DNA from: Plasmodium brasilianum
Lineage: Eukaryota; Apicomplexa; Aconoidasida; Haemosporida; Plasmodiidae
NCBI RefSeq assembly: GCF_023973825.1
Contig: NC_090118.1
Span: forward strand, 917,501-972,500
Direction of reading: 5' to 3'
Length of the DNA stretch: 55,000 nt
Part shown: positions 12,901 through 37,631 of the stretch, one piece after another
Layout of the letters: every line of letters starts with the position of its first letter
Position numbering within the stretch: position 1 is the first letter of the stretch
Made by a program: the position numbers and the translations under genes
Notes under the pieces: generated by a model
Seen by the model: only the letters and a program-made list of their open reading frames with translations
Databases searched by the model: none
Told to the model about the DNA's origin: nothing

Positions 12901-14509
12901 AATGATAACTTTATAATAACACTATGTTTTTTAGGCATATCAATGAAAACATGTTTTTTCGACCTTCTCAAAATATATGGCTCTATAATAAGTTGCAATA
13001 AAATTATTTCCTTATTCTTCAACTCCACATGCTTTACATCGTTTCTTATAATTTCGATTAAATAATTTTTTATAATATTGCTCGTCTCTTCTGTCAGGTA
13101 TACACCTGCATCGCTTCCCCTGTCGTCCACCTGCTTTTCCGCATATTGCGCATTCACTGTACTTCCCCTATCTCGCTCCGACTTTATATCATATATATCA
13201 AATAGTTTGCCGCTCCGCAGTGGAGTGCTTTCGGATATGGCCTGCTCCTCTCCGTCCTTCTTATTCACAGTATCTTGATACATTTTTACAAATGCACTCA
13301 AGGCATTATTTATATTTTCTTCCGTAAATATATCTGGCATTAGAAACAAAAGTAGATTCATCAATTCTTGTGTCTTGTTTTGTATAGGTGACCCTGTTAA
13401 TAATATTTTATTATTAAAAACAATTTTTTTTTGTAATTTTTTATATATTAAAGAATTTTTATTTTTCAAAAAGTGGGCTTCATCAAATATTAGATAATCA
13501 TATTTTTTTATTTGTCGAAAATAGGAAACATCATTCTTACCTATAAGCATATTAATACTAGTAACAATTAAATGTATATTATTTGTCTTATTTGTAAAAA
13601 TATCATATGCTAAATATTTCCTCTCATTCTGACTTCCATAATATATTATTTTATGATTTCTTAAATAAGGACACCACATATTTATTTCATTATTCCAATT
13701 TTTTAACAAACTAGTTGGTGCTACAATAATCGTTTTATTTTGTAATTCTCCTGTCCTGTACATGTAATCTAAAAATACACAAGTCTGTGCTGTTTTTCCT
13801 AATCCCATTTCATCAGCTAAGATTCCATTTTTTTTTTCTTTATATAATATATATAACCAAAAAACACCACATTTTTGATAATTCTTTAACTTATGAAACG
13901 TATCAACATGTTTTTCAAAATCTTCAAAATTTGCATCATAATTGCTTATTCGGAAAGACCCTTTTACAAATTCTTTTATTATATCTTGTCTTTTCTCTCT
14001 TTCATTGGCTGTAAAATATTCAATAATTTTATTTTTTATCTTTATAGATATAAATATGCACTCAAATAACACCTTTAAGTTATTCTTATATTCCTCAATT
14101 TCTTTTTCATTCGATGTTATAAGATCATTCTCCTTCAAATACGAAGAGACCTGACTTTCTCCATCATACTCCTTTTTGAGTGTGTCCTCCTTCGCTTCAT
14201 TTCGTCCACTCATTCTGCTCATTCCGCTAATTCCGTTTAGCCCATTTAACTCTGTTTTTTCTCCTTTTATTTCACTATTTCTTTTCTTGTTATTCTTGAA
14301 GCCTCCTTCCTTCTCATTTTCCGCTACACTGTTCGAGCTGTCCAGTACTCTTCTCAATTTTTTTTTTTTTTCTTTTTCAAAACACGCTCGTCGCTTTTCT
14401 TTTCCTCTGCTTCGTCCAGCTTCTCTTTATACACATATTTGTCGAAATCAAATAAGTTGTTCGTTAATTTTCTTTTTCTCAACGGGTCAACGAATTCGAA
14501 AACGTCCAT
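9971..14509 (-). CDS. SNF2-family chromatin remodeller, Fun30/SMARCAD1-like
   Basis: Exons: 14509-11520, 11156-11105, 10963-10896, 10405-10331, 10000-9971; about 1071 aa once one frame break is allowed for. Motifs: ADEMGLGKT (Walker A, about residues 232-240), DEAH at 343-346, LLTGSPIQN, then STKAGGVGLNLIAANHVILMD. Exon 2 supplies DWNPHNDRQAEDRVHRLGQ, motif VI with Arg1010 and Arg1013. WCPYLRNHKIIYYGSQNERK resembles SMARCAD1/Fun30/ETL1 more than ISWI or CHD. The family uses ATP to move nucleosomes in heterochromatin maintenance and end resection. A long Asp/Glu/Ser-rich insertion separates the two lobes. Oddity: the frame from the ATG at 14509 (MDVFEFVDPLRKRKL) runs into TGA at 14356-14354, just after a 14-A tract (14371-14358). 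The helicase frame is offset by one base there. A downstream start at the first Met of MSRMSGRNE is the alternative. Confidence 0.85.
10431..10672. repeat. A/T minisatellite in a SNF2 intron
   Basis: AAATAAATATATAAA-type tandem repeats with a higher-order unit of about 55 bp (10524-10610), inside the intron between exons 3 and 4. The FYIFFIYLL-type ORFs over it are artefacts. Confidence 0.85.
11202..11342. repeat. AAACATGAA 9-bp array in the first SNF2 intron
   Basis: Tandem 9-mers (AAACATGAA, drifting to AAACAAGAA and AAACGAGAA) in the intron between exons 1 and 2 of the remodeller gene. It codes for KNMKNMKN only by chance of the repeat unit. Confidence 0.85.
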
Positions 14510-20322: not shown

Positions 20323-20728
20323 AATGGACATATACTATGTTAAGTATAATAGTGAAATTACAAATTACAATTAACTGGTGTAGAACAGAGATTAAAAAAA
20401 AAAAAATAATGAATATCGATGTAAAAACTCAATAAAAACATGTGAACAATAAATAAGTAACACATCAGTACTGTATATATTAATATACAATCGAATTTTG
20501 TATATTTTTGTTACTGTATTTGCAAATTATAAAAGTTGATATCAGTTAATTTTTTTTGTTTTTCTTAAAAACATTTAATATCATTTATACATCAACAAAG
20601 ATTTTACTTTTACAAACATATAATAAACATATGAATAATATACATTGATGAAAAATAAATTAAAAGTAAATCTTAAAATTAATTATAATTAATAGTTAAC
20701 TAATATAAAAAACGGGGAAAAATAAATT
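14510..20728. other. Left part of the gene desert
   Basis: Starts at the 5' flank of the SNF2 gene, so it should hold that promoter. The rest is very AT-rich DNA with poly-A/T, (TA)n tracts (15540-15720, 17885-17930, 18540-18575, 20265-20320), a CTGAGTAATTCA-type repeat at about 15100-15160 and the 19186-19376 array. No ORF has a plausible protein composition. A centromere could lie here or elsewhere in the desert, but nothing I can read proves it. Confidence 0.5.
19186..19376. repeat. AAATGTGTAAATGTGC 12/6-bp array
   Basis: Tandem AAATGT hexamers alternating as AAATGTGTAAATGTGC and AAATGTGTAAATGTTC, about 190 bp. Its reverse complement translates to HLHIYTF repeats, which I take as an artefact. 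Confidence 0.9.
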
Positions 20729-20868
20729 GGTGTGTCCCTACCCCTGTATGACTAATGCTGTGTATCAGGATTGTTATTTTGTACTAATATTCTTAAACAC
20801 GTGGGAATCGAGCCCTCGACGAATACTTCCAAAGGTAGCACCCTTAACCACTGCGCAAAAGACAACAA
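20729..20868 (-). ncRNA. Pol III-type tRNA-like element, family A (A1)
   Basis: Read on the minus strand. The A box is TGCGCAGTGGTTAAGG (20842-20857) and the B box GGCTCGATTCCC (20803-20814). The 5' end GTCTTTT can pair partly with the 3' end TAGGGAC. Short T runs follow the 3' end. It is the most diverged of the well-formed A copies downstream of the B box. It is not a tRNA: total length is ~140 nt and no clean T arm forms. Confidence 0.5.
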
Positions 20869-21208
20869 GAATAAAATTTTGTAATTGTAATTATAATTTT
20901 TTTTTTTATATTCACAAAATTTTTAACTTATGTACAAATGAAAAAAAAAATATATATATATGATATTGCAATAACTACAAGCAAAATATGCATAATGTCC
21001 ATAAGAGTCTAAATAAACGTAAAGTAGGAATTAGCACAAATAAAAATTTATTAAAATATAAAATTTAAGAAAATTGGTGAAACGTATAAGAAATTATACT
21101 TTATATTATGCGACTTATGCATAAATGTCTATATTACTTTTCTTAAAATATCTCCAAATAAAAATCTTATAAAATTCATATAAAATGTTTATTAAATTAA
21201 TTCTTTTA

Positions 21209-21462
21209 AATACATATACATAGTGAACATACAATTATAATAAGTAAATATTATTACATTGACATTGCTAATGTAAAAAAAATATAAAAAAATTTGATCG
21301 ACTCCATCCCAAGTACTCCCTCGCAGTGATTCATATTAGTATGTTGACTTGTGAACGCCTGATACCCCGGGACTTGAACCAGTTACTATCACTTCCTAAT
21401 CAACACGCCTAACCACTGGTGTACGAGTCGCTTAAAATTATTCTGTATAATTATAATTATAC

Positions 21463-21495
<33 letters not shown>

Positions 21496-21726
21496 GATTT
21501 GATAAAAGTATACATACATAAAAAAAAAAAAAAAAAAATTAAAAATATACCCTCTACAGTGTGTACATATATAAAATTAAGTTATATTAAAATGTATAAT
21601 ATTAAAAAATGTTTTTTGAAAAATGAGGATTTTCTTAAACACAAAACGTTTTATCTACAAGTTTTATGAAAAATTATGAACAGTAAATATTTTTATATCT
21701 CAATTTGCCTGACTTGTGCATAATTA
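21209..21726 (+). repeat. Left arm of a ~520-bp near-identical inverted repeat
   Basis: This segment, including element B1 and the GAACAG...CCTGACTTGTGC motif, reappears reverse-complemented at 27714-28230. By eye the match is nearly base for base apart from homopolymer length, whereas other copies of the same unit in the array are clearly diverged. This implies recent duplication or gene conversion. Confidence 0.85.
21299..21430 (-). ncRNA. Pol III-type tRNA-like element, family B (B1)
   Basis: Read on the minus strand, 132 nt. The A box is TACACCAGTGGTTAGGCG (21406-21423) and the B box GGTTCAAGTCC (21370-21380). The ends CGACTC (5') and GAGTCG (3') are perfectly complementary. A T7 run follows within ~12 nt of the 3' end. 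The A box resembles the Leu/Ser tRNA class. The T stem beside the B box is not fully pairable, so a functional tRNA is unlikely. An almost identical inverted copy is at 28009-28140. Confidence 0.65.
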
Positions 21727-21916
21727 TAATATTATGCATTCTTACAATTTTTTATTTTTCATAAAATTTGTAAAAACATCTATCTATATATACATACACA
21801 GTTCATTCACATTTTAGCTGGAACGCAATATAGATGATAAAACATTGTTATTATTTATATCATATGAATAAGTATGTAAGATATTGAGATATTTAAAAAA
21901 TTAAAGATAAAATAGT

Positions 21917-22066
21917 GATCCCCTGCTCTATCCCAAGTTTCTTCTTCAATTGATCAACATAATAACCTTGTTGTTAGAGTTTTAAGAACAAGGGATTAGA
22001 ACATGAAAAACCTGAGACCTCTAGTTCCAAAGCCAACATCCTTAGCCACTATGCTAATAACGACAA
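21917..22066 (-). ncRNA. Degenerate family A element (A2)
   Basis: Keeps the family A framework (CTTAGCCACTATGCTAATAACGACAAG on the plus strand spans the A box and 5' end), but the B-box region (GATTAGAACATG on the plus strand) is damaged and carries an insertion. No long T run sits at its 3' end. Probably an inactive copy. Confidence 0.4.
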
Positions 22067-22514
22067 GAGAATCACAGTAGCATTGTTATTATATTCATAA
22101 TTTTTTTTTTTTTTTTTTATATGCATAAAATCTCTCATTTTCGTATATACAACGGAAAAGACGAAAAAAAATGAAATGTTGCTATTACGCCGACATATGT
22201 ACATACATAAAATACATAAATATCAAATTAATTAAATGTAAAATACAATTGTTCATAAATAAAATTTTTTTTAAATATTAAATTTATAAAAATTTATGAT
22301 ATGTTCTGAAATTTATATTTTATATTAGAAGACATATGCACAAATGTCTGTATTATTATTTTTTAAAAGGTATCCAATAAAAATCATACAAAATGGACAT
22401 TAAATAATTTCTTTTAATCACATACATGTATACACTGTGAAGATACATTAAGTTAAATTTTATATTATTACATTAACATGATTATTGTAAAAATATGTAA
22501 AAAAAAAAAATTAA

Positions 22515-22646
22515 GGGACTCTATCCCTGGTATTTGCACGCAATAGCCATATTAGTATATTGACTAATGAGAGCCTGCTTCCCTGCAACTTGAACCAGTT
22601 ACCATCACCTCCTTATCAACATGATTATCCGCTGGAATAAGTGTCT
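22515..22646 (-). ncRNA. Family B element (B2), partly diverged
   Basis: The B box reads GGTTCAAGTTGC (22585-22596). The A-box region is diverged. The 5' end GACACT pairs with the 3' AGAGTC at five of six positions. A T12 run lies about 5 nt past the 3' end. Same length (132 nt) as B1. Confidence 0.5.
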
Positions 22647-23104
22647 ATTAAAACTGTTTTATGTAATTATAATTATGCTCTTTTTTTTTCTTTTTTTTCT
22701 TCGTTTTATATATGTATTCATATAATTAATTGAATGGAAGTTAAAAAACATATTCCTTGTACTAGTTATTCGAATGCGTGCGTAAAATAAAATTAAAATG
22801 TATAATGTTCAAAATAATTTTAAAAAAATTATGAACATTTATACATATAAAATGTTATATTTTCTAGTTTTATAAGAAAAATTATGAACAGTTCATGTAT
22901 TTATATTTCAAAATTGCCTGACTTGTTCATAATTTTGCTATGTTCTTTCTCTTTTTTTTTAATTAAAAAATATCTGAAAAGATATATAACATTAATTCTT
23001 TTTTAAACTGCAATTTAATACTTATGATAAAATATGGATATTATTTATTTTATATAAGTATCAATATGTAGTATTTATATTTAAAAAGTAAAAAAAAAAA
23101 AAAA

Positions 23105-23246
23105 TGGTGCGCCCCTACCCCAATCTGCTTTTTCAGAAGATCCAGATGTTAAACTTTGTTGTAATAGTTTGGAATTCGAGAGACTCGAACCCCAGACAAT
23201 TATTTCCAAAGGTAACATCCTTAGCTACTGTGCAAGGGACGACAAG
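23105..23246 (-). ncRNA. Family A element (A3)
   Basis: Read on the minus strand. The 5' end is CTTGTCGTCCCTTGCACAG, the B box GGTTCGAGTCT (23181-23191), and the 3' end TAGGGGCGCACC is followed directly by a T15 run. CGTCCCT can pair with the 3' AGGGGCG. The copy looks well preserved, and transcription by Pol III is plausible. Confidence 0.6.
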
Positions 23247-23746
23247 AAAATTATATTGTTTCTTTAATTATATTTATAATTTTTTTTTTTTTTTTTTATA
23301 CATATGTGATATGTTTTTCACATTTTTATGCCCGAGAAAAAAATATATGCCAACGTAATAAATAATTTGAATTTATGTATACTCTTAAAATACAAAAAAA
23401 TTCAAGAAAAATGGATGAAATATAAGAATATGTATTTAGGCTGAAAATTTTTAAATTAACACAATTTGGTAGAAATATTTAAGTGCAAAAAATTATAACA
23501 ATTTCCCTACATGCATAAAATAGGTGTATATTATTTTATTTATTTTTTTTTATAATTTTTTTAAAAAAATTCATTTATTTTTTTTAATTGTTTATGATAA
23601 TTTTACGAACTAGTATGGAACAGTACTCCTGTCGTTCCCTTTTCTTAAATACAAACATTTTACAAATATAAACATATAAAAAAAATAATTTTTTTTGTGT
23701 TATTTTATCTATTTAATGATAAAAAAAAAAGTGCGAAAAATTAAAA

Positions 23747-23890
23747 TTGGTGTGTATTGAATGCAAACTTATTTTTTGCATAGGATACATATGTTAACTT
23801 TTTCGTGAAAATTTTTAAGCAGTGGTATTCTATCATGTGGTCCGTACTTCCAAATATAACATACTTCTCTACTTCCTGTGAAAGGACAGG
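23747..23890 (-). ncRNA. Decayed family A remnant (A4)
   Basis: Recognised by position (~640 bp from A3), the TGGTGTGT-like start, the GTACTTCCAAATATAAC block and the ATTGTATTGTAATTGTATTC flank shared with other A copies. Both promoter boxes are lost. Presumably a dead copy. Confidence 0.3.
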
Positions 23891-24509
23891 AAAATTGTAT
23901 TGTAATTGTATTCTTAATTTTTTACTTATATAATATCAAAATACAATGGAACGCAGTCTGTTTTTTTACCTTTATATACTCACCATTTTCACTATAACGT
24001 TCTCACCGTTTTCTCTAATATATTCTCACCATTTTCTATTTTACATATTATCCATTTTTTCTTGCTCCACTTTTTGTTTCTTGATATAAATAAATAAAAA
24101 AAAAATATCCGAAATAGGATATTGTAATAATAACTGTTTTACATATATAGTTAATAGCTGTATATATTCTAAAGTTAATGTATGTACACGTGTAAATAAA
24201 TAAATAGGAAGAATTATAAAATTCAATTCCAAAATATTTTTCAAAATTAACGTCCTTAATGCAAACTAATTAGACTATTTGTGTATAACAGAGCTTATTT
24301 TTTATTTTTATTATTTTTTTTTTTTATATTTTAAAAATGTTATTTTAGCTAGTTTGTTTCTTTTATAGTTGTTAAAAAAAATGATACAGACTTCAAAATA
24401 CCTATATACTTAAAATACATGAATATGGTAAGTATTAGTTAGATAATTGTTTTATACAATTTTATATATTTAATAATAATTTAGAGTTTAATAAAAAAAA
24501 AAAAAAAAA

Positions 24510-24652
24510 GCTCCACTTTTACAATGTAACTGCTACTGTGAACGCAAACGTTAACTTTGTCGTAAGAGTTTGGAACCCGTAGGATACGAAACTTTGACAC
24601 GTACTTTCAATATCAGAATAGTTAGTTACAGAGAAAAAGCGGTAAGATAATT
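24510..24652 (-). ncRNA. Decayed family A remnant (A5)
   Basis: Shares GTTAACTTTGTCGTAAGAGTTT and the downstream ATGTAATTATAATTTTTTT flank with family A. The B-box region (GGATACGAAAC on the plus strand) is degenerate and the A box is absent. A poly-T run still follows its 3' end on the minus strand. Confidence 0.35.
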
Positions 24653-25073
24653 ATATCTTCATGTAATTATAATTTTTTTTTTTGTATACTTAAGTACAAA
24701 TGTTAAAAAAAAAAAAATGCAATAATGATTATTTTAATATATTCATATAATTAAAATGCATAAATATCAAAATAATTAAATACAAAATATCATTGTTCAT
24801 AAATAAAACTTTTTTTAAATGTTATATTTATAAAAATTTATGACATTTTCATAAATTTAACTTTCATAATGCATGATTTATGCATAAATGTTTTTATCGT
24901 TTTTCTATTTAAAAAAGTGTCCAATAAAAATCATATAAAAATTATACAAAGTTCATATTAAATAATTTCTTTTAAAAAATATACGTATGCATAGTGATCA
25001 TATAACAAGAATAATTGAATACTAATTAACTAATAATAAATAATGTTAAAATATGTAAAAAAAAAAATTAAGA

Positions 25074-25201
25074 GACCCCTATCCCAGGTATTTGCTTTCA
25101 CTGGTTCTTACTATGCTATCTAGTGAGAGACTGCTTCCCGGGAACTTGAATTAGTTATCAACACTTTCTTATTAGAATATCTAACGAGTGGAATAAGAGT
25201 C
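25074..25201 (-). ncRNA. Family B element (B3)
   Basis: Read on the minus strand. The 5' GACTCTTATTCC can pair over 12 positions with the 3' GGGATAGGGGTC (with G-U pairs). The B-box region (CTAATTCAAGTTCC) is partly eroded. A T11 run follows the 3' end. The pairing differs in sequence from B1 but keeps the stem. Confidence 0.5.
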
Positions 25202-25660
25202 GCTTAAAGCTATTTCGTGCAATTATAATTATATTAATATAAATTGTTTTTTTTTAATCGTACTTGTGCTTATATATTCAGATAAATAAAAAAATATATA
25301 TATGCCCATTATACTAGTTCCTGAAATAAGCATATAAAATAAAATTAAATTGTATATTATCCAAAATAAAGGAATTAATAATATTAATGTTCATAAATAT
25401 AAAATATATTATGAATCCGTTTTGTAAACAGTTATGAACAGTGAATATTTTTATACCTCAATTTTCCTGACTTGTGAATAATTATAAATTATGCTTTCTT
25501 ACAGTCTTATATTTTTCATAAAATTTGTAAAAATAAATACGGTTAATTTTTATTTTAATTGGATCACAATATGGTTGATAAAATACAATTATTATTTATT
25601 GAATATAAATAAATATATAAGTTATTGAATATTTAAAAATGTCAAAAAAAAAAAAAAAAA

Positions 25661-25801
25661 TGGTGCGCCACTATCCCAAGCTGCTTATTCAATGGATCCA
25701 AATGCTAACATTGTCGTAAGAATTTTAAGCCCGAGGGATTCGAACCTGCGATCCTTAGTTCCAAAGTTAACACCCTTAGCCACTGTGCTAGTGACGACAA
25801 G
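25661..25801 (-). ncRNA. Family A element (A6), well preserved
   Basis: Read on the minus strand. A box TAGCACAGTGGCTAAGG? The read here is TAGCACAGTGGCTAAGG (25774-25790), and the B box is GGTTCGAATCC (25736-25746). The 3' end is followed at once by T17. Terminal stem: 5' CGTCACTA pairs with 3' TAGTGGCG at all eight positions (one G-U). Compared with the copy at 32463, both sides of one pair have changed (C-G to A-T). Confidence 0.65.
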
Positions 25802-27713
25802 AAAATAATATTGTCATTGTGTTTATACTTATAATTTTTTTTTTTTTACGTGTGGCACATATTTGTACTTATATAAAAAAAAAGTTGTGTTTGTCAGAGT
25901 AATTTAAATGTTCATCAATGTTTTAGTGAAAGTTTAAATACTTATATAAAAATAAAATAAAAATAAGCACTAATGAGAATGGATAAATATAGAACATTTT
26001 CTTGCCTTAATTAGAATAACATTAAGGAAAAGTTTATTAACTATATTTTTTTATATCTTATTTTACCTGAACAAATTATATTTATTTTCTCTTTTTAAAT
26101 TTCTGATTATAACCATATTAAAAAAAAATAAAGTGGAATACCCGTTTTATCCTGAATTTTATGACAAAAATATAAGCTTTTATTATATGAGGAATAAATT
26201 TTTATATTTTTTTGATTATATATTCATGTTCACCAAATTAAAATTATGAAGTATGTGAGCATAAGTAATTTTGCTTAAAATATTTTCTTCTAAAGCTGGA
26301 AAACTTTTAATGTAAAGAAGCTTATTAAAAAATTAAATATAACCTGCACGTGTCAGGTAGCAAAAAAGTATGTTTAATGTTTTAAAAAAAATATTTTTAA
26401 GATCTTATTCATTTATTTTTTTTTTTGCATAATATATCTTTCATTGTTTAGTTATATGATATGTTGTAGAAAAGTGCTGGCACACACTACAAAATTTATT
26501 AGTTATTTAGAGTTAATTCATAATATACAAAATCTAGCTAAATAAGTGAAACATTATAAGATAGAAGGAAAAATTAGTTAATATACACATGTAAAATGTT
26601 TTTTTAAAATATTAAGCATACAGTAATAAAATGATGAGAACTGTGTAGTTTTCAGTATTTATCGTAAAAGATTTAAAAGCTTTTTTGATTTTTTCCTAGG
26701 TTTATTCATATGTACTACTACTGCTACTACTGCTACTACTGCCACTACTGCCACTACTGCCACTACTGCCACTACTGCCACTACTGCCACTACTGCAGAT
26801 ATGAAAGACATTTATCTTCTTTAAGTTAGTCATATTTTTCTATATCGTAAAAAAATGTTGTATCAAGGGTAAAAAGAAGAACATATTGCTATAACTGCAT
26901 AGCTATCATAATAATGTAATAAAAAATAAAGATATATAAGAAAAAAGAGATTAAGATAAATAGCCTTTAGTTATTCTCCAGAATTTTGAAATATTTTAGG
27001 TAAAAATTTCCATTATGCAAATATGAACTAGCGTTATTATAACGTGTTTTCATAGTATTGGAATACATTCTTTAGGGACTGTTGAAATATATAATATACA
27101 TTTTGATTAAATTCTGTAAATATATTTCTTTTTTTTTTTCATCACATATATATATTTACGTGTGTGTATTCATGAAGATAAATTTTTATAGTCCTACAAA
27201 ACAAATTAAGAATAGAACTATGTTCTAAACAACTGCTACTGTAAAAGTGAGATACATATATATCAAGGATAACCTAGGGTGTTAATATTACCGATATTTA
27301 TACAATTTTTTTTTTTGTTTATTTCAACAGCAGAAAATTCTGAATATAATACATATATTAAATAAAATATCTAGTTTCACAAAGTTTATCAACATGCAAG
27401 TAGTAAATGAACGCATTCAATAATATATCATCTCCGTCAGAAATATTTATTTCAAAAAAAATAACATATACTCATATTACATAAATACTTAAGCATATTT
27501 CTTTCACCCCTTATATATATATACTTATTCTAAGAAATAGGTGTTTCATAATAATATATTCATAGTACAAAATTTTTAAAATACTGTGCTTTCACATATG
27601 CATACATTATAATAACGAAATTATGTTATATGTCTCTTTTATAAATAGAATAAATAACTACATATATTCAACCAAATAGAAGAAAAACAAAATTAATTAA
27701 AAGAACAACAAAA
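25802..27713. other. Desert sequence between array arms
   Basis: AT-rich DNA without a recognisable gene or intact tRNA-like element. It contains a short GC-richer CTACTG/CCACTACTG array at 26713-26797, and otherwise A/T homopolymers. Confidence 0.5.
26713..26797. repeat. ACTACTGCC hexamer/9-mer array
   Basis: About 85 bp of ACTACTGCTACT passing into repeated ACTGCCACT units, far richer in C and G than the surrounding DNA. No ORF extends usefully beyond it. Confidence 0.9.
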
Positions 27714-27939
27714 TTATGCACAAGTCAGGCAAAGTGAAATATAAAAATATTTACTGTTCATAATTTTTCATAAAACTTGTAGATAAAACGTTTTGTGTTT
27801 AAGAAAATCCTCATTTTTCAAAAAACATTATTTAATATTATACATTTTAATATAACTTAATTTTATATATGTACACACTGTAGAGGGTATATTTTTAATT
27901 TTTTTTTTTTTTTTTTATGTATGTATACTTTTATCAAAT

Positions 27940-27976
<37 letters not shown>

Positions 27977-28230
27977 GTATAATTATAATTATACAGAATA
28001 ATTTTAAGCGACTCGTACACCAGTGGTTAGGCGTGTTGATTAGGAAGTGATAGTAACTGGTTCAAGTCCCGGGGTATCAGGCGTTCACAAGTCAACATAC
28101 TAATATGAATCACTGCGAGGGAGTACTTGGGATGGAGTCGATCAAATTTTTTTATATCTTTTTTACATTAGCAATGTCAATGTAATAATATTTACTTATT
28201 ATAATTGTATGTTCACTATGTATATGTATT
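27714..28230 (-). repeat. Right arm of the ~520-bp inverted repeat
   Basis: Reverse complement of 21209-21726. It includes element B4 (28009-28140) in plus orientation. Homology stops near TACATATACATAGTG at one end and at GTGCATAATT at the other. Confidence 0.85.
28009..28140 (+). ncRNA. Family B element (B4), inverted copy of B1
   Basis: Plus strand, 132 nt, same sequence as B1 as far as I can compare: CGACTC at 28009-28014, A box TACACCAGTGGTTAGGCG, B box GGTTCAAGTCC, and GAGTCG at 28135-28140 closing the stem. TTTTTTT follows within 10 nt. Confidence 0.65.
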
Positions 28231-28574
28231 AAAATAAAAATAATTTAATCTCAGCTGTGTATGATTTTTATTGGATACATTTAAAAAAAAAAATATATAA
28301 TATAACCAGTGTCGCATGCGTCAGGTAATATTAAATATAAATTTATGTACACATCATAAATTTCTTTAAATTTAATACTTTTTTTAATTTTTTATGTTCA
28401 TCCATATATTTCGTTTAATTCGTTTGATTTTTGCTTATTTTATTTATATAAATAAGTTCAAATAAATATTACAGAGGCATATATTTTTTCCCTTTGTATG
28501 TACAAAAGAGACAGAATTTGTGCATAAAAAAAAAAAAAAAATTATGACTATAATCAGAATGACCAGATTATTTT

Positions 28575-28716
28575 CTTGTCATCACTAGCACAGTGGCTAG
28601 GAATGTTAATTTTAGAACTAAGTGTATTAGTTTCGAATACTTCTCGCTTAAAATTCTTACGACAATGTTATCATTTGGATCCACTAAATAAGCAGATTGG
28701 GATATGGGCGCACTAT
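28575..28716 (+). ncRNA. Family A element (A7), plus strand, diverged
   Basis: Starts CTTGTCATCACTAGCACAGT with an intact A box (TAGCACAGTGGCTAGG). The B box (GTTTCGAATACT) is damaged, the terminal stem has three mismatches, and T5 follows the 3' end GGGCGCACTATC. Likely weak or dead. Confidence 0.45.
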
Positions 28717-29218
28717 CTTTTTATTTTCTTTATAGAATGCCATTAAATACATGAATGAACATGATATTATATTATAAAAAAAATATATATGTATTCAATA
28801 TACCTTTAAAAAAAAAAAAGATTAATACCATTAAAAAGGATTAATTGCGTTAATCCATTGCTAAAAAAATAATCATATCATTAAATCGATTTTTTCATTT
28901 TTGCATAATGAAGATAAAACATACATCCATGTTATGCACAATTGATGTACTTAGTGGTGTTGCAGTAGTTATCCCTGAGGTACCACTAAAAAGAATGAAT
29001 GCGTTAATTTTTTCTATTTATGAAAATTAACTTGTTTCATTGTTTAAATTTTATGTATATAGAAATTATCCATGCGTACACACAGATAATTATTGGAATA
29101 TCTGATTTTATTTTTTGTTTCGTTTTTACTTAAGTATGCGTCGAAATTTTGTGAGAGGAAACAATGGTTAGTGTATAAGAGTGAAAATAGTAAATATACT
29201 AGAATGCGCATAGTAAGT

Positions 29219-29375
29219 GTACTATAGTGAAATAGTAAGTATAGTATAGAGAAATAGTAAGTATACTGTATATAAATAGTAAGTATAGTATAGAGAAATA
29301 GTAAGTATAGTATAGAGAAATAGTAAGTATAGTATAGAGAAATAGTAAGTATAGTATAGAGAAATAGTAAGAATA
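29219..29375. repeat. AATAGTAAGTATAGTATAGAG 21-bp array
   Basis: About seven tandem units of 21 bp built from AATAGTAAGTATAGT and ATAGAGA, with single-base variants. The minus-strand ORF over it (YTYYFSILYLLFLY) is a repeat artefact. Confidence 0.9.
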
Positions 29376-30025
29376 TTAGAGTGAAAATGGGGAGCATATA
29401 TAAAAGTAATCGTGTGGAGTTTATAAATCTAAATAATATCGAAAATGTTAAAGTAAAATACGATTATCTTATATAAGCAGAAAATTATAAGCATAATTGC
29501 AATGGCAATAAAAATTATTTGCTGTTACATATTCAGTTGCTAGTATTAATGAAGATGGATGTGCAAGTCGAGGTCTTTATTGCCAATGTTATCTCCAAAT
29601 TTTCATAGTAATGTTTGCATGTGTATCCTCTGCAAAATAATAAGATTGGGGTAAGGGAATGCCAAAATATTTTTTCATATTCCTTTGTATTAACATGAAA
29701 TGCTTTCAATTGTAATGTCAAATGTTTTTAATAGTAATATGAAATGTTTCAATTATTTATACTTACTATTTAAGTGTGTGTACAAAAAAAGAATAATATA
29801 AAAGATGAGTAATCTTTTTAATAATTATCTAGGAATTGAAACAAATTAATAACATCTTGAAATTTTGTGAAAAAAAAAAATATATATATATATGTACAGC
29901 AATTTCATGCACACATCAGGGATATGTTGCTATATGTGTAAGCACTTTTGAGGAATTCTTAGAAATTTATTATTTCATTTATAGTTTAATGATGAATATT
30001 CTTACTCATCGACAAATAAACTACA

Positions 30026-30059
<34 letters not shown>

Positions 30060-30112
30060 TTTGTATGGTTAATGAGATATAATAAAATTTTTTGTTATTG
30101 CTCTTCCAATGG

Positions 30113-30124
30113 AATAGCTATATT

Positions 30125-30167
<43 letters not shown>

Positions 30168-30172
30168 CTATT
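30113..30172. repeat. Palindrome flanking an (AT)n tract
   Basis: AATAGCTATAT at 30113-30123 and its complement ATATAGCTATT at 30162-30172 bracket a pure (AT)n run. The whole stretch can form a ~60-bp cruciform. Confidence 0.8.
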
Positions 30173-31040
30173 CGAGCAAAAACAAAAAAAAAAATTAAAT
30201 TTATAACTACATGTAGACAAATTAATCATTAAAAAAAGAAAAATTACACGAATACAAATTATATAAAAGTAAATATGAAAAAATAGAAATAAGTAAAAAA
30301 GGGTTTATGTATAATTTTATATGAGATTGGTTATTCTTGAATAATGCATCATATTTTGCTTTCTCATTTTTAATATTTCACTTAATAACATTACATAAAA
30401 TGCATATATTTTATTACAATATAATCTACAAACATTTATATTTTTTTAAATGTTAATATATAATTCGTTATTTTACTTTCATAATAATAAAAAATTTACA
30501 TTATGTAGCTTATTAATTTATACATCATTAGGAATTAACATTTTCAATATAGTAAAAACTGATTTTTCTAATTCATCATTTTATGAAAAATTTGAACAGT
30601 ACCTGAACAAATCATATAAAATTTGAGTTACGTTATTTAATGGAATAGTAAATTTCCTGTAATACATTCATTTAATACATGTTTGTAAGAATATTTTCAT
30701 TATATTGTATGATGTATTGTGTGGCATCACAGGGATGATATAAAATTATTCGCTATGAAATACTTGTACAGCTTAATATACAATCATTATGAACAAATTA
30801 TGAACAAATTATAAACAAATTATAAAGCAAAAGAAATGATATATATTTCATAAGTAAAATGCAAATAAATGAATAATTCTGTTGAAGTGTAGGGAAATTA
30901 CGCATATTTTTACATTTCAAAATTTCCAAATGATCTGCATGTCGTACGTTTTCCTAATTTACCAACATTCACTATGAGATATACGAACATAATATTAACT
31001 TGCTAAAATTGTTAAATAAACACACCCTCATGGCATATGC

Positions 31041-31086
<46 letters not shown>

Positions 31087-31678
31087 CAATAGGTAGTGTA
31101 TTCATAATATTGATTTTTAATGAGTACTAGAAAATTCATTAATAACCACTTAACATATAATGCACTAAAAAAAATGGCATTTCCAGTAAGAAAATTAAAA
31201 TAGAAAATAATATTACTTAAAGAAAAGTGTAATATAGTGCGTGTTCGCTTATTTACATTAAAAAAGTAAAATTAAATTAAAAGAAAATAACCCAATTAAT
31301 TTATTAACCGATCAGATATTTTCTTATAATGCAATACTATAATTCGAAAAATACTATACCATTAATGTACGCAATATAATAAGCATAACAATAAATTATA
31401 AATCTCAAAATAAAAATTAAAGTAACAAACATATTTAAAGATAGTAATAAAGTTAATAATAGCTATACTTAAAATAATTAAAAATAATAATTCAAAATAT
31501 GTATAAGCAATAAATTTTGTATTATCTTTTTGAAAAATATTCAAGTAATAAAATCTTTCTTTCCTCTTAACTGTATACACCATAACATAAGCATTATGCT
31601 CTTGATATTACTTATTATATATAAGGAAATGTTCATATATATAACCCATTAATATTTGGAAAAAAAAAGAAAAAATAC

Positions 31679-31809
31679 ATTATACCAAACATATTATACT
31701 AAACATATTATACTAAGCATATTATACTAAACATATTATACTAAGCATATTATACTAAACATATTATACTAAACATATTATACTAAACATATTATACTAA
31801 ACATATTAT
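31679..31809. repeat. CATATTATACTAAA 13-bp array
   Basis: Tandem units close to AACATATTATACT and AGCATATTATACT, about ten copies, ending just before the tRNA-like element at 31858. Confidence 0.9.
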
Positions 31810-31857
31810 ATTAAATACAAAAAAAAAAAAAAGATAAAAAAAAAGAAAAAGAAATAA

Positions 31858-31996
31858 TTTTGCTCCTATTACAAGCTACTTTTTCAGTGGTTCCAAATGT
31901 AGATTTTGTCGTAAGAATTTTACGTCTGAGGGATTCAAACCTGCAACCCTTACTTCCAAAGTCAACAGCGTTAACCACCGCCTTAGTAACAACAAG
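31858..31996 (-). ncRNA. Family A element (A8)
   Basis: Read on the minus strand. The B box is GGTTTGAATCC (31931-31941); the A-box region is AAGGCGGTGGTTAACG. The 5' TGTTACTA pairs with the 3' TAGGAGCA at seven of eight positions, with two pairs changed on both sides relative to the 32463 copy (C-G to T-A). T5 and T9 runs follow. Confidence 0.5.
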
Positions 31997-32462
31997 AAAA
32001 TAATACTTTCATTGTGTTTATACTTATAATTTTTGTTTTGTTTTGTTTTATTTTATGCATGTATACTCATATTAAGGCAAAAAAAAAAAAAAAAATAATA
32101 ATATAGCCACTTCATTATTTGGTGTACATATATAAAATTAAGTTAAATTAAAATGTATAATATTAAAAATTATTTTTTGAAAAATATGAATATTCATAAA
32201 CACAAAATGCTTTATCTACAACTTTTATAAGATATTATGAACAGTAAATATATTTATGCATCAGATTTCCTGACCTGTGCATAATTATAATTTGTACTAT
32301 GTCACAATTTTTTTTTTTTCATAAAATTTATAAAAACATATACGATCAATTCATAATTTAACTGAAATGTAATATAAATTAAAAAACAGAGTAATTATTT
32401 ATTACATATAAATAAATTTATAAGTTATTGAATATTTAAAAATATCAAAAAAAAAAAAAGTA

Positions 32463-32606
32463 TGGTGCGCCCCTATCCCAAGCTGCTTTTTCAATGGATC
32501 CAAATGTTAATTCGGTTGTAAGAGTTTTAAGCCCGAGGGATTCGAACCTGCGACCCTTATTTCCAAAATCAACACCCTTAGCCACTGTGCTAGGGACGAC
32601 AAGAAA
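32463..32606 (-). ncRNA. Family A element (A9), best preserved copy
   Basis: Read on the minus strand. A box TAGCACAGTGGCTAAGG (32576-32592), 27 nt spacer, B box GGTTCGAATCC (32538-32548), then ~65 nt, 3' end TAGGGGCGCACCATAC and a T13 run (32447-32459). 5' CGTCCCTA (32598-32591) pairs with 3' TAGGGGCG (32475-32468) as an 8-bp terminal stem. The A box matches the Leu/Ser tRNA type. The T stem is broken, so it is tRNA-derived rather than a tRNA. This architecture equals a Pol III type 2 gene, like P. falciparum RUF6 or a tRNA-derived SINE head. Confidence 0.7.
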
Positions 32607-32673
32607 TTTATATTATTATTGTAATTATATTCATTTTTTTTTTTTTTTTTTTTAACCTATATGCTTGAGCATA

Positions 32674-32706
<33 letters not shown>

Positions 32707-33048
32707 CAATAATTATATGAACACATGCATACACTTAAAATACACAAATGTCAAAACGAATAAATTCAAAATATAAATATTCTTAAATAAAGACTGTTTA
32801 ATGTAACCACAATGTGAAAATTTATGAACAGTACATGCTCATATACTTCAATCGTCCTGACTCGTGCATAATTTTGCTGTAGTTTTTCTTTATTTATGTT
32901 ATAATATTTGCAAAGATATACATGGTTAATTCATTTTTAAATGGAATTTTATATAAATGATATGAATTTTATGGTATTTCCTAGTACTTTTGCTTATGAT
33001 TAAATTCATAAAACTTCGTGATATTTAAAAAGTAAAAAAAAAAAAAAA

Positions 33049-33196
33049 TGCTATTTAACCTCCTACCACAATCTGCTTTTTCAGTTGATCCAAGTGTTAA
33101 CTTTGTAGTAAGAGTTGTAAATCCAAAAGATTCGAACCCTGGATACTTAGTTCCAAAGTTAACATCCTTAGCTAATTGGCAAGAGATGACAAAGAA
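33049..33196 (-). ncRNA. Family A element (A10)
   Basis: Read on the minus strand. The B box is GGTTCGAATCT (33129-33139); the A box is weaker (GCCAATTAGCTAAGG). The 5' ATCTCTT pairs with the 3' AGGAGGT side over about seven positions including compensated pairs. T15 follows the 3' end. Confidence 0.5.
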
Positions 33197-35528
33197 ATAA
33201 TATTGTCCTAGTAATTATATTCATAATTTTTTTTTTTTTTTTTGTATGTATATATGTAAACATATGTACCTTAAAAATAGGTTGTTGCACGAGTTATGTA
33301 AAAAGACATATATATTAAAATTAAAATGCCTACTATTCAAAATAAATGAACAAGAAATGTAAATTTTCAAAAATTATAGTATGGTTAAAATAAGAAGGGT
33401 TATACGCATTTTTGTATCTCTTCTGTGTGATCATAATTAAAATTATTCTTATCTTCCATTTCTTAATTATTATCTTCGTTCATAAAAATTTATTTATTTT
33501 ACTGTTGGGTTTTATGGCTAAAATGTGTCTATATATATGTATATTTGTGTAAGAATGCATATCTGCATATGTATACATACTAACGCAAATTTTATATGTT
33601 CTCGTTTTCCTGCATTAAATTTAAAATACATTTTTCAAGCGATAAATATTTATTTAACGCAAAAATAAAAAACGGACTCCCATTTGATGCTTTCCCTTTT
33701 TCAATTATAAAAACATACATTTTATGAAATTTTTTTATATGAAAGTATACTAATTGTTAAAAATACATTTTATGTGTCTAAATAATATTTCTTTCATTTT
33801 TAAGTTTATGATCTGATGTTTGAATTTGTCTTCGTGTATATTACAACATATACCTCCTTTCCAACACATACACACACAAGGTCGCAAACACATATATAAA
33901 CATTTACAAGATGCTAAAATGTGTTTCTAACAAAAATATGCTCTACTAATGCAAAAATCTTACATGTACATATAGTAAAGAACTAACTGTGTTTATGATT
34001 AAGCATTTGGGATATTGTGTGTCATACTGTACATGATTTGATAAAAATCATCTTAGTCCATTCATTTGGGACTTAAAATTATTCAGCGTATATAAAACTG
34101 TTTATTATATTAAGAGTTAATTAACAGTAACTTTCAAAATTGTTAATAATGTTGAAGGGGTGTATAATTTATAAAATATAAACTAATTTCTTGCATATAG
34201 CAATAAAGTTATTTACATATTTTTTAGCCTTGCCTTTGTAAATAAAATTAAAATAAGTATCCAATTACACAGTGAAGAAAATAAATAAAAAAAAAAAAAA
34301 AAAGCTAACCTAACGAAAAATTTTCAAAAAAACATTATAAATACACATGCAAAAGAAGGAAATATTAGGACACTCATATCACGCCTTTTTAAACGATTAA
34401 CTCCACAACTTATGCTAATCATAATTTGAAAGATAAAGCGATGTTTGTACTTCAAATTATATGGCTAATTTTTTTTTTAAGCTGTACCTACTGGTACTTG
34501 GAAAAAGAATATAAAAGTGAAATATAATAAAATGAAATTAGAAATATAATAAAATAATAAAAATAAAAGTATATTTCTTAAAAAAATTGATTCCCTCATT
34601 AATACGCATTTCTTAATAAAAATCGTTCAAACGTTCACACAGTGCAAAATTAAAAATTACGAGTATCAATGATTTTCAATAAAACAAGAAATAGTAAAGG
34701 CACAAAAATGATTATCAATGTAGATTGCTTACGAATGTCATACTGCTCCTTATTTTTTAAAAAGTCGAAACATGCAAAACATGTGCGTACACTTATATAC
34801 ATTTATATATTTACACGTATATGTTTATGCACATATACATATACGTACGAATAACGCGAGTACATATTTTCACTTCCTTAAACGATGAAACGATTAAACG
34901 ATAAAACGATAAAACGATTAAACGATTAAACGATTAAACGATTAAACGATTAAACGATAAAACGATATAACGATATAACGATAAAACGATAAAACGATTA
35001 AACGATTAAACGATTAAACGATTAAACGATTAAACGATAAAACGATTAAACGATTAAACGATAAACCGATAAAACGACAAAACGACAAAAGGTACAATTT
35101 TTTGAAAAGAAACATGCTGACTTGTTCTACTCTATACTCTTAATTACATTTTAAAATGTAACAAAAAAATTAAGATATTAATAAAAACAACTAAGTAATA
35201 ATTTTTTTTTTTTTTTCAAAGGAGAAGAAAGAAATGTATATGTTCGCTCATAAGAGATTAAAAAATGCTTACACGATAAACACGTTACAACATTGGCAAA
35301 AATATATTTCTTATGTTACCTATTTGTGTAATTAAAAACAAAATAAAAGGGAAAACGGTAAAAAGCATTCCCACGCATGTTTGCACATATATATATTTTT
35401 ATATATATATACATGCACGTACCTATGCACACACGTGAAACAGGCGGAAATACGGAAGGATGTTAAATTGCAGGAAAGAAAATGTACCCGCTTGAAGTTC
35501 GATAAATGGGGAAACACGTAAATATAAT
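33197..35528. other. Right edge of the gene desert, upstream of GatA
   Basis: No gene recognised. AT-rich spacer, then the AAACGAT array, then about 400 bp directly 5' of GatA that should hold its promoter and 5' UTR. The ORF at 34669-34854 ends in a YTYTYE microsatellite and is not credible. Confidence 0.5.
34884..35090. repeat. AAACGAT heptamer array
   Basis: About 28 tandem copies of a 7-mer, mostly TAAACGA or AAAACGA, with a few ATATCGA-like variants. It is not the Plasmodium telomere repeat (GGGTTYA). It lies ~440 bp upstream of the GatA start. Confidence 0.92.
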
Positions 35529-37631
35529 ATGCACAGACTACCCATAAATTTATTGTACATTTCCTTTTTATTTCTGAACATTGACATATTTAACATTTTA
35601 CAATCACTATGCTTAGTTAAAGATAGTGTAGCGTTCAGAGTAGCAAAAAATAATAATTTTTTGAAAAATGAAATACCCCACTTTGTTAATTACAAGGGAT
35701 GCAAAAGTGCATGTACCCTATCTTATATATTTTTGAAGGACAAACATATACATGCAGAAAAAGGGAGAAGAAAAAGAAACTGTACACATATAATTACGTA
35801 TAATAGTACTTATGGTTGTGCACATGATAGTACATATGATAGTACATATGATAGTACATATGATAGTATATATGATAGTACGTACAATGAAAATAAGTAT
35901 AGTGAGTTTAACAGCTCTCACATATATCAAATAAGAAGGAAAATATTATCATCCAAGCTTGACATAAAATATATCTTTGAAAAATATATAATTAAGAAAG
36001 TATTGCATGAAAATATTAACAAATATAACAGCTTTTCGTATATATATTCCACTGATGAAATATATGAACAGATCAGAAAATTGTACAGAATTTATGAGCA
36101 GTGTGGAAATTTATCAAAACTACCAAAATTGTTTGGACTTCCAATCGTTTTAAAAGACAACATAATAACAAAAAATATACCAACAACAGGAGGAAGTAAA
36201 ATTCTATCAAAGTATATACCTTCTTACGATAGTACACTTGTAAAAAAATTGAAGAAAAATGGTGCAATCATAATAGGAAAAACACGTTTAGATGAATTTG
36301 CAATGGGATCCTGTACGGGCAAGGTAAAAAATCCATTTAATGAAAAATATTTATCATGTGGTGGTTCTTCTGGTGGATCAGCTAGCTGTATAGGATCAAA
36401 GATTATGAACTGTTCAGTAAATACAGACACAGGTGGATCCATTCGAACTCCATCATCTTTATGTGGATGTATTGGGTTAAAACCTACCTATGGAAGAATT
36501 AGTAGATATGGTGTTATACCATATAATGAAGAAACTGATGTAGTTGGGTTAATATGTAACAATGTGTATGATTGTAGTGTATTGTTGGATGTTTTAAGTG
36601 GGAGGGACAAAAAGGATTTAACAACGTTAAAAATTAAAAAAATTAAAAAAAAAAAAAAAGAAAAAGAAGAAAAAGAAAAAGAAAAAGAAAAAAGAGAAAT
36701 AAAAGAAATAAAAAATGTGAACAGTTTATTGAAAAAATATGAACTGTCAGAAAGATTTAAAAGTCAAAAACCATTAAAAAATATGAAGTTTGGATACATA
36801 TGTGAAGATATTTTAATGGACTGTTTTGTTGATAAAATTGTTTACATCAATTATAAAGAGGTTATGCGAAATATTGAACATTTGGGAGGAACATTAATAA
36901 ATACTAATATTTACAAATTAATTGATTACTGTTATATATATTATGTATATTCAATGATTATAGCGCATAGCAATATTTCAAGAATGAATGGAATAAATTA
37001 TAATATGCATAATATAAATAATGAAACGAATTATATTAATAAAGTTAGGTCAAATATGATAAATGAAAATGTGTTAACAAGAATAATTGGTGGTTCTATT
37101 TTTTCCTCTCATTTTCAAAAAATAAATTTTCGTAATATATTTTTAATGGTAAAAAAAAATCTTACCAAAAAATTAAAAATACATTTTAAAAAAGTAAATT
37201 ACATTTTGTTACCTTCCATTCCTAGAAGTAATAATATACGAGACGACATAGTAAACACGTGTGTATATGATGATATCATTTTAAAAGGAGGAAATATTGA
37301 ACATAGTATACATAGTGGCAATGGTCATATAAATGATATACATGTAGATATGGAAAATTTATGGAAAAAGAATAAATACAACAAGTACATGAAAGAAGTT
37401 TTCTCTATTGTGTCATCTATTACAGGCTTCCCAAGTATAGTCATACCAACAGGAACATTCACGAAAGATTTTAACGAACCGCAGTCCTTTCAGTTGATAA
37501 CTTCAAACTTAAATGAAATAGGATTACTACGAGTTGCCTTAGCATACAAGGAAAAGCTCAACGTTAATAAAAAATTAATAGAGAATTTGAATAATTTGAA
37601 TAATTTGAAAAACGTGCAAAACGGCGAGTAA
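35529..37631 (+). CDS. gatA: Glutamyl-tRNA(Gln) amidotransferase subunit A, apicoplast-type
   Basis: 700 aa, single exon. It is the amidase subunit that releases ammonia from glutamine to convert Glu-tRNA(Gln) into Gln-tRNA(Gln) with GatB. In Plasmodium this serves the apicoplast, which lacks its own GlnRS route (known). Amidase signature: VLKDNI with Lys209, CGGSSGGSA with cis-Ser280, TDTGGSIRTPSS with nucleophile Ser304. All three catalytic residues are present, and KPTYGRISRYGVIP follows. The N-terminus (LPINLLYISFLFLNIDIF) is a hydrophobic signal sequence followed by a Lys/Asn-rich stretch, fitting a bipartite apicoplast leader. Insertions: DSTYDSTY repeats at residues about 100-118 and a Lys/Glu run at about 360-395. 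Bacterial GatA is ~485 aa, so the excess is leader plus insertions. The ATG is the first in frame. Confidence 0.93.
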   Translation: MHRLPINLLYISFLFLNIDIFNILQSLCLVKDSVAFRVAKNNNFLKNEIPHFVNYKGCKSACTLSYIFLKDKHIHAEKGRRKRNCTHIITYNSTYGCAHDSTYDSTYDSTYDSIYDSTYNENKYSEFNSSHIYQIRRKILSSKLDIKYIFEKYIIKKVLHENINKYNSFSYIYSTDEIYEQIRKLYRIYEQCGNLSKLPKLFGLPIVLKDNIITKNIPTTGGSKILSKYIPSYDSTLVKKLKKNGAIIIGKTRLDEFAMGSCTGKVKNPFNEKYLSCGGSSGGSASCIGSKIMNCSVNTDTGGSIRTPSSLCGCIGLKPTYGRISRYGVIPYNEETDVVGLICNNVYDCSVLLDVLSGRDKKDLTTLKIKKIKKKKKEKEEKEKEKEKREIKEIKNVNSLLKKYELSERFKSQKPLKNMKFGYICEDILMDCFVDKIVYINYKEVMRNIEHLGGTLINTNIYKLIDYCYIYYVYSMIIAHSNISRMNGINYNMHNINNETNYINKVRSNMINENVLTRIIGGSIFSSHFQKINFRNIFLMVKKNLTKKLKIHFKKVNYILLPSIPRSNNIRDDIVNTCVYDDIILKGGNIEHSIHSGNGHINDIHVDMENLWKKNKYNKYMKEVFSIVSSITGFPSIVIPTGTFTKDFNEPQSFQLITSNLNEIGLLRVALAYKEKLNVNKKLIENLNNLNNLKNVQNGE

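Follow-up and report, generated by a model that had tools for sequence, protein, structure and literature searches.

A stretch of 55,000 nucleotides of chromosome 5 of Plasmodium brasilianum (C5:917501-972500, referred to below as the window) contains an array of 15 related elements (array 1). About 307 kb away, at C5:630616-642106 (L015, L016, L057), a partly inverted paralogue (array 2) holds six to seven further copies. On the sequence evidence, and with a probability put at close to even, these elements are predicted to be a two-locus family of RUF6-like small RNA genes transcribed by RNA polymerase III (Pol III), in a lineage that lacks var genes; shared ancestry with RUF6 is plausible but unproven. 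In P. falciparum, RUF6 is described as a 135-nt Pol III gene with an A and a B box, found next to central var genes (PMC9670795, PMC11208047, PMC6974570). Lowering RUF6 RNAs is reported to lower var expression (PMC6974570, PMC9670795), and knock-down to lower both var and other clonally variant families, with a proposed role as an insulator (PMC11208047, PMC6974570, PMC9262227). According to published statements, conservation of the RUF6 family is limited to those Laverania species that have var genes (PMC9670795), or extends throughout Laverania, in coevolution with var (PMC6974570). An earlier note on this DNA had placed the array in a non-falciparum species, and it does belong to the P. brasilianum / P. 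malariae lineage, two species described as identical at 98.4% of chromosomal sites (PMC9671904). A table in the P. malariae genome report gives a var count of 0 for that species (PMC5326575); no direct search for var was made in the present genome.

Genome-wide searches covered the P. brasilianum assembly of 31,374,054 bases in 43 contigs, described as 31.4 Mb in 14 chromosomes and 29 unplaced contigs (PMC9671904). Profile searches with nhmmer identified 11 A-type and 4 B-type elements in the window (E 1.5e-44 to 2e-14 over 75 kb). The earlier note had counted ten A and four B elements; its four B elements stand, its A count is one short, and its coordinates for two examples (32463-32606 and 28009-28140) are correct. 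Both arrays together hold 21 copies, 19 of them distinct, and the A alignment was built from 15 A copies. The elements form GC-rich islands, as had been observed before, with a GC content of 0.31-0.45 per record in surrounding 1-kb bins of 0.20-0.27. Similarity among the A copies spans the whole records of about 150 nt (mean column identity 65% over 15 copies), and similarity among copies also covers about 40 bp preceding the records. Ordinary tRNA pseudogenes in which nothing but the two boxes is conserved, an alternative raised in the earlier note, thus do not describe the A family as a whole. The observation in the note is confirmed, and the family is larger than described there, since array 2 had been missed. 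A covariance model of the 15 A copies recovered all 15, as it must, having been built from them, along with one new copy at 41.8 bits in array 2. It also returned a doubtful match at 21.6 bits (E 0.083) outside the arrays, at C5:625184-625344 (L058 184-344, plus strand), near the PHIST gene cluster described below.

The likeness to RUF6 was found with the Rfam model RUF6-5 (RF01581). When the genome was searched with this model at E up to 10, with 37 of 1030 first-look candidates scored, six places were returned and all six belonged to this family. Three A copies matched over the full length of the model (positions 1-156): the element at 25653..25805 (A_25805; 30.3 bits, E 0.0075, at 25639-25799), the one at 23097..23250 (27.6 bits, E 0.0345, at 23083-23244), and the one at 32455..32606 (A_32606; 26.7 bits, E 0.059, at 32442-32601). 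The other three places were a single B sequence present in three copies, with 21.7 and 20.7 bits and E of 1.1-2.1. In 5 of 14 control genomes, this search likewise gave sub-cut-off matches. In a permissive Rfam search of the array, no family but RUF6-5 matched two or more elements or fell below E 1, and no Vault/Y-type family appeared in the Rfam lists. Two other families, snoU30 (E 2.6) and ceN109 (E 8.9), each weakly overlapped one element and were taken as chance matches, and the microRNA family names in the lists fell on AT repeats. When 20 tRNA loci were scanned, RUF6-5 was absent from the matches listed, 150 of 189. The family also resembles RUF6 in its A/B box spacing, T-run end, GC content above background, and occurrence as a multigene family at chromosome-internal loci, and its best copies probably share the single-rod fold with paired ends. 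Its element body of about 130-145 nt, with presumed transcript ends, is comparable to the approximately 135 nt of RUF6. The RUF6-5 consensus folds into a similar single rod, and the pairs of the model are standard in the two best copies at 39 of 51 and 40 of 51 positions. By eye, an AACUUU/AAAGUU helix appears to be common to RUF6 and the A copies, at nearly equal distance from the B box.

The elements have the layout of type-2 Pol III genes that had been proposed for them, with putative A and B boxes in a tRNA-like 5' half. The window was scanned for an A box (TRGYNNARNNG) and a B box (GGTTCRANTCC), patterns which we take to be the consensus, with no more than one mismatch per box and 25-70 nt between boxes. 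Five of the 15 array copies passed: the boxes are separated by 44 nt in four (at 32.6, 25.8, 23.2, and 20.8 kb) and by 36 nt in the fifth (33.1 kb). Elsewhere in the 55 kb a single place passed, at 52.5 kb, and it belongs to a repeat within a coding frame. In A_32606 and A_25805 both boxes match perfectly, with the 44-nt spacing. The B copies are weaker: only the two identical ones, at 21.4 and 28.0 kb, match the B box exactly, and the A box that lies 43 nt away has two mismatches, while the copy at 22.6 kb has one mismatch in the A box and two in the B box and the copy at 25.2 kb did not pass the scan. A run of at least four T was confirmed at the end of all 21 copies of both arrays, although such runs are common in the local DNA.

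Upstream of the elements, the best-conserved part of the preceding 340 bp lies at -40 to -21, with a mean pairwise identity of 0.73 versus 0.47-0.66 elsewhere, a value that is inflated by an A-tract. Of the 19 distinct copies, 12 carry TATAA[T/A/G] at -22/-23, and among 30 of 44 tRNA upstream regions used as a control it occurred no more than three times at any 2-nt position. An example is 32607..32650 (minus strand), where an A-tract is followed by TATAAT at -23 of the record. Together with the internal boxes, the A-tract and TATAA would look like a compound Pol III promoter, and would presumably work as one. A more distal motif, CCTGACTTGTGCATAAT, located between -266 and -292, was present with up to three mismatches in seven of the 19 distinct copies (window 21708, 22917, 25466, 27729, 32269, and 32856; L015 9704 and 1340), and was rejected as a defining part of the element.

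The 5' half of A_25805 aligns over about 60 nt with tRNA-Arg(TCG) of the same genome, and that of A_32606 with tRNA-Thr(TGT). The elements share A and B boxes and this alignable 5' half with the tRNA genes, but they are twice as long and differ in having no cloverleaf and no match from ARAGORN or the tRNA family RF00005. ARAGORN found 0 tRNAs in the window, and none of the 44 RF00005 matches in the genome lay within the arrays. A cloverleaf was rejected, as 39.4% of cells were paired with no covariation signal, versus 50.3% when the model was slid by +1 column. The best copies are instead predicted to fold as one long rod, in which the 3' half pairs back on the 5' half, the B box lies at the tip, and the ends pair just ahead of the T run. 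Vault/Y-type Pol III RNAs likewise combine internal boxes with pairing of the RNA ends, a likeness of layout only.

The rod was assessed by folding energy and by covariation. The z-scores of the minimum free energy (MFE) were -3.9, -3.4, -2.6, -2.4, and -1.9 in five A copies, the first three being the elements at 23097..23250, 31849..32000, and 33042..33196. A rod model of 46 pairs, each present in at least three single-copy folds, was laid on a sequence-only alignment of the 15 A copies. Pairing was 75.5% of cells, compared with 72.5 +/- 0.8 with letter-shuffled columns and 37-47% when the model was slid. Cells changed on both sides numbered 35 versus 21.4 +/- 4.0 (1 of 500 shuffles as high), the covariation score was 0.248 versus 0.204 +/- 0.014 (reached by 1 of 500 shuffles), and pairs with both-sided change numbered 21 versus 15.3 +/- 2.6 (14 of 500 shuffles). 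A rod derived from five copies only was paired in 309 of 450 cells (69%) in the ten left-out copies, versus 35-47% when slid, and over 19 distinct copies the ends of each copy paired better with each other than with swapped ends (p 0.007).

Several results weigh against the reading of these elements as RUF6-like RNA genes, beginning with those on the relation to RUF6 itself. The gathering score of RUF6-5 is 70 bits and the best match here is 30.3. On the sequence profile of the family, the RUF6 consensus scored 0.4 bits, a value reached by 9 of 2000 shuffles, while reversed RUF6 scored 1.4 and tRNAs up to 18. The 3' halves of 16 of 21 copies were tested, none of them showing similarity to RUF6 (lowest p 0.097); similarity scores of the 5' halves to RUF6 fell within the tRNA range. 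Thus, the attempt to prove homology to RUF6 from primary sequence alone, by local alignment and hidden Markov model with shuffles and 30 of 44 tRNA loci as controls, did not succeed. GC content is 0.31-0.45, versus more than 50% described for RUF6 (PMC9670795). With an E limit of 1, the A covariance model did not retrieve any B copy. The family further differs from RUF6 in that its A and B subtypes are arranged in tandem and have TATAA upstream, and in the absence of var genes from its lineage. Because the scores are far below the 70-bit cut-off, the GC content is lower, and sequence support is missing, the family is named RUF6-like rather than RUF6. The earlier note had regarded the family as separate from RUF6. 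That is now doubtful, given the full-length matches of three A copies, the six of six genome places, and the rod architecture of the best copies, even though the scores stay below the Rfam cut-off and primary sequence gives no proof of homology.

Such a separate origin would mean that a tRNA-derived Pol III RNA family arose independently in the P. malariae lineage and came to resemble RUF6 only by convergence, with a tRNA promoter half and a self-complementary 3' half, acting as an RNA or as an insulator or boundary bound by TFIIIC. This is a possible explanation, although one of well below even probability. The alignment of the 5' halves with tRNA-Arg and tRNA-Thr, the higher scores of tRNAs than of RUF6 on the family profile, and the lack of detectable shared sequence with RUF6 in the 3' halves are consistent with it. 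However, no place in the genome other than these elements is listed by the RUF6-5 model at E of 10 or less, and box spacing, length, rod, and terminator all coincide with those of RUF6. Convergence is hard to separate from common descent because the 5' half of RUF6 is itself tRNA-like.

A second set of adverse results concerns the fold and its conservation. In ten of the 15 A copies the fold reaches z-scores of just -1.5 to +2.4 relative to shuffles, and the B copies range from -0.2 to -1.2, while 19 random windows with GC of at least 0.3 average -0.6 and reach -2.3. For the copy with the lowest z-score, the antisense strand comes close to the same value (-3.2). The rod model is partly circular, having been derived from folds of the same copies, and relatedness alone can beat the shuffle control. 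Compensatory changes in the ten held-out copies were not significant (24 versus 19.6 +/- 3.3, p 0.12), end pairing within the A copies alone gave p 0.096, and RNAalifold found no structure on the full set of 15 A copies. Given these mixed MFE, held-out, and RNAalifold results, the rod is likely in the best copies and appears to be eroding in many. Between the arrays, conservation of paralogous A bodies (66%) does not exceed that of the spacer (69-75%), and there was no sign of purifying selection on A bodies between the paralogous segments. It is rather improbable, though it would fit many of these observations, that the elements are tRNA-derived pseudogene repeats that were amplified by duplication, moved to two places by chromosomal rearrangement, and are now functionless. 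The poorly folding copies, the A bodies diverging as fast as spacer, and the broken boxes of several copies would be expected of such relics. The two copies with both boxes exact, near-whole rods, and TATAA at the usual place would not, and neither would the conserved upstream region at -40 to -21, even with its A-tract inflating the value, or the rod covariation in the full A set. A few copies look intact and many look to be decaying.

The earlier note had also suggested a short interspersed nuclear element (SINE), that is, a tRNA-derived retroposon. Apart from the tRNA-like head with A and B boxes, the data fit this poorly, and it is very improbable, because the copies share upstream DNA, were found only in two partly paralogous arrays, and end in a T run rather than an A-rich tail in all 21 cases. 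Some tRNA-derived SINEs end in T, so the T-run end alone is not decisive, and the genome searches behind the restriction to two arrays are of limited sensitivity, two of the single-copy DNA searches having returned just their query. The paralogy of the two arrays is direct: window 27712..31641 (plus strand) aligns in inverted orientation with C5:638721-634879 at 76% over 4003 columns. One 141-nt B sequence occurs three times without any difference: twice in array 1, in opposite orientations (within the element at 21286..21438, minus; and at 28005-28145 within the element at 28001..28153, plus), and once in array 2 (C5:638288-638428). This identity was rejected as a property of the gene alone, since it extends over a longer conversion-like tract, in which 27760-28359 matches array 2 at 99-100% over about 600 bp. 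At window ~21205-21725 and ~27712-28360 and C5 ~638.1-638.7 kb, several hundred bases are identical or nearly so, two of these places being 300 kb apart. Such tracts represent either recent gene conversion or an assembly artefact.

The remaining elements of array 1 were located as follows. A-type elements are on the minus strand except those at 28571 and 29514, and B-type elements are on the minus strand except that at 28001. At the left end are an A-type element at 20720..20873 (nhmmer E 2.7e-31; covariance model 116.4 bits), the B-type element at 21286..21438 (nhmmer), an A-type element with a 9-nt insertion ahead of the B box at 21910..22071 (nhmmer, alignment, and covariance model), and a B-type element at 22503..22654 (nhmmer). 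A decayed A-type element at 23742..23894 (nhmmer, MFE z, and covariance model) and one with decayed boxes at 24499..24651 (box scan, nhmmer, and covariance model) follow, and then a B-type element with decayed boxes at 25061..25210 (nhmmer), which has a weak RUF6-5 match of 16.8 bits. Beyond the B-type element at 28001..28153 there are A-type elements at 28571..28722 and, decayed and missed in the earlier note, at 29514..29671, both on the plus strand. Nhmmer and the covariance model found these two and also the minus-strand elements at 31849..32000, 32455..32606, and 33042..33196. In array 2, nhmmer placed A copies at C5:630616, 637859, 639051, and 641259 and B copies at C5:638417 and 641933, and the weaker copy found by the A covariance model lies at C5:636801-636955.

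If these elements are RUF6-like Pol III genes, known Pol III biology suggests that TFIIIC would bind the A and B boxes and TFIIIB the TATA element, and that Pol III would read the body of about 130-145 nt and stop in the T run. By likeness to RUF6, either the rod RNA or the TFIIIC-bound DNA might act on the chromatin of chromosome-internal clusters of exported-protein genes, in the way that RUF6 acts at internal var/rif clusters. Array 2 lies among exported-protein (PHIST) genes, with PRESAN (PHIST) matches at C5:623181, 628652, 633547 (one in-frame stop), and 644716; these would be the likeliest targets. No PRESAN match was found in the window, which also counts against the proposal, and other multigene families were not searched for. 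Copies would have spread through duplication of units that include upstream DNA and through gene conversion, not by retroposition. Several PRESAN frames contain in-frame stops (C5:633547-633921, C7:1989491, C13:2531718, and others) and are pseudogenes or exon ends.

Array 1 is flanked on the left by a SNF2-type DNA helicase frame at 11445..14426 (minus strand), which is 99% identical to P. malariae and corresponds to AK88_01249 of P. fragile, and on the right by a GatA-like amidase frame at 35496..37631 (plus strand), corresponding to AK88_01184. Between them there was no frame looking like a gene. These two genes, neighbors in P. brasilianum, are 65 locus tags apart on the same 481,316-base contig in P. 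fragile, so array 1 is probably at a rearrangement breakpoint, as judged by the locus tags of this one draft genome. At a usual density of about 4.5 kb per gene, 65 genes would span nearly the ~307 kb between the inverted paralogous segments. A search with IMP4 aimed at the second breakpoint obtained no P. fragile tag. Chromosome 5 of P. malariae is described as carrying a pericentric inversion relative to P. vivax (PMC5326575), and the two arrays may bound it, which makes them candidate sequences for its breakpoints. A broader scenario, which is speculative and unlikely as a whole, is that control of internal surface and exported gene clusters by RUF6-type RNA predates the var genes, that the P. 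malariae lineage keeps expanded RUF6 relatives in a PHIST cluster, and that recombination between the inverted arrays made the chromosome-5 inversion that marks the lineage.

Among the titles and abstract beginnings considered, none described RUF6-like RNAs from P. malariae or P. brasilianum. The noncoding RNAs of P. malariae are described as annotated with Rfam 12.0 (PMC5326575), and with the present RUF6-5 cut-off of 70 bits such annotation would miss these elements. If RUF6-like genes do exist in a human and simian lineage without var, then the RNA system either came before var or arose twice, and these species would allow the basic function of a RUF6-type RNA to be studied apart from var. 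Two tandem repeats also lie in the desert around the elements. A nine-base repeat (CCACTACTG) is at window 26715-26795, and a repeat around AATAGTAAGTATAGTATAGAG is at window 29184-29382, with similar stretches at C11:863375 and C11:1240656.

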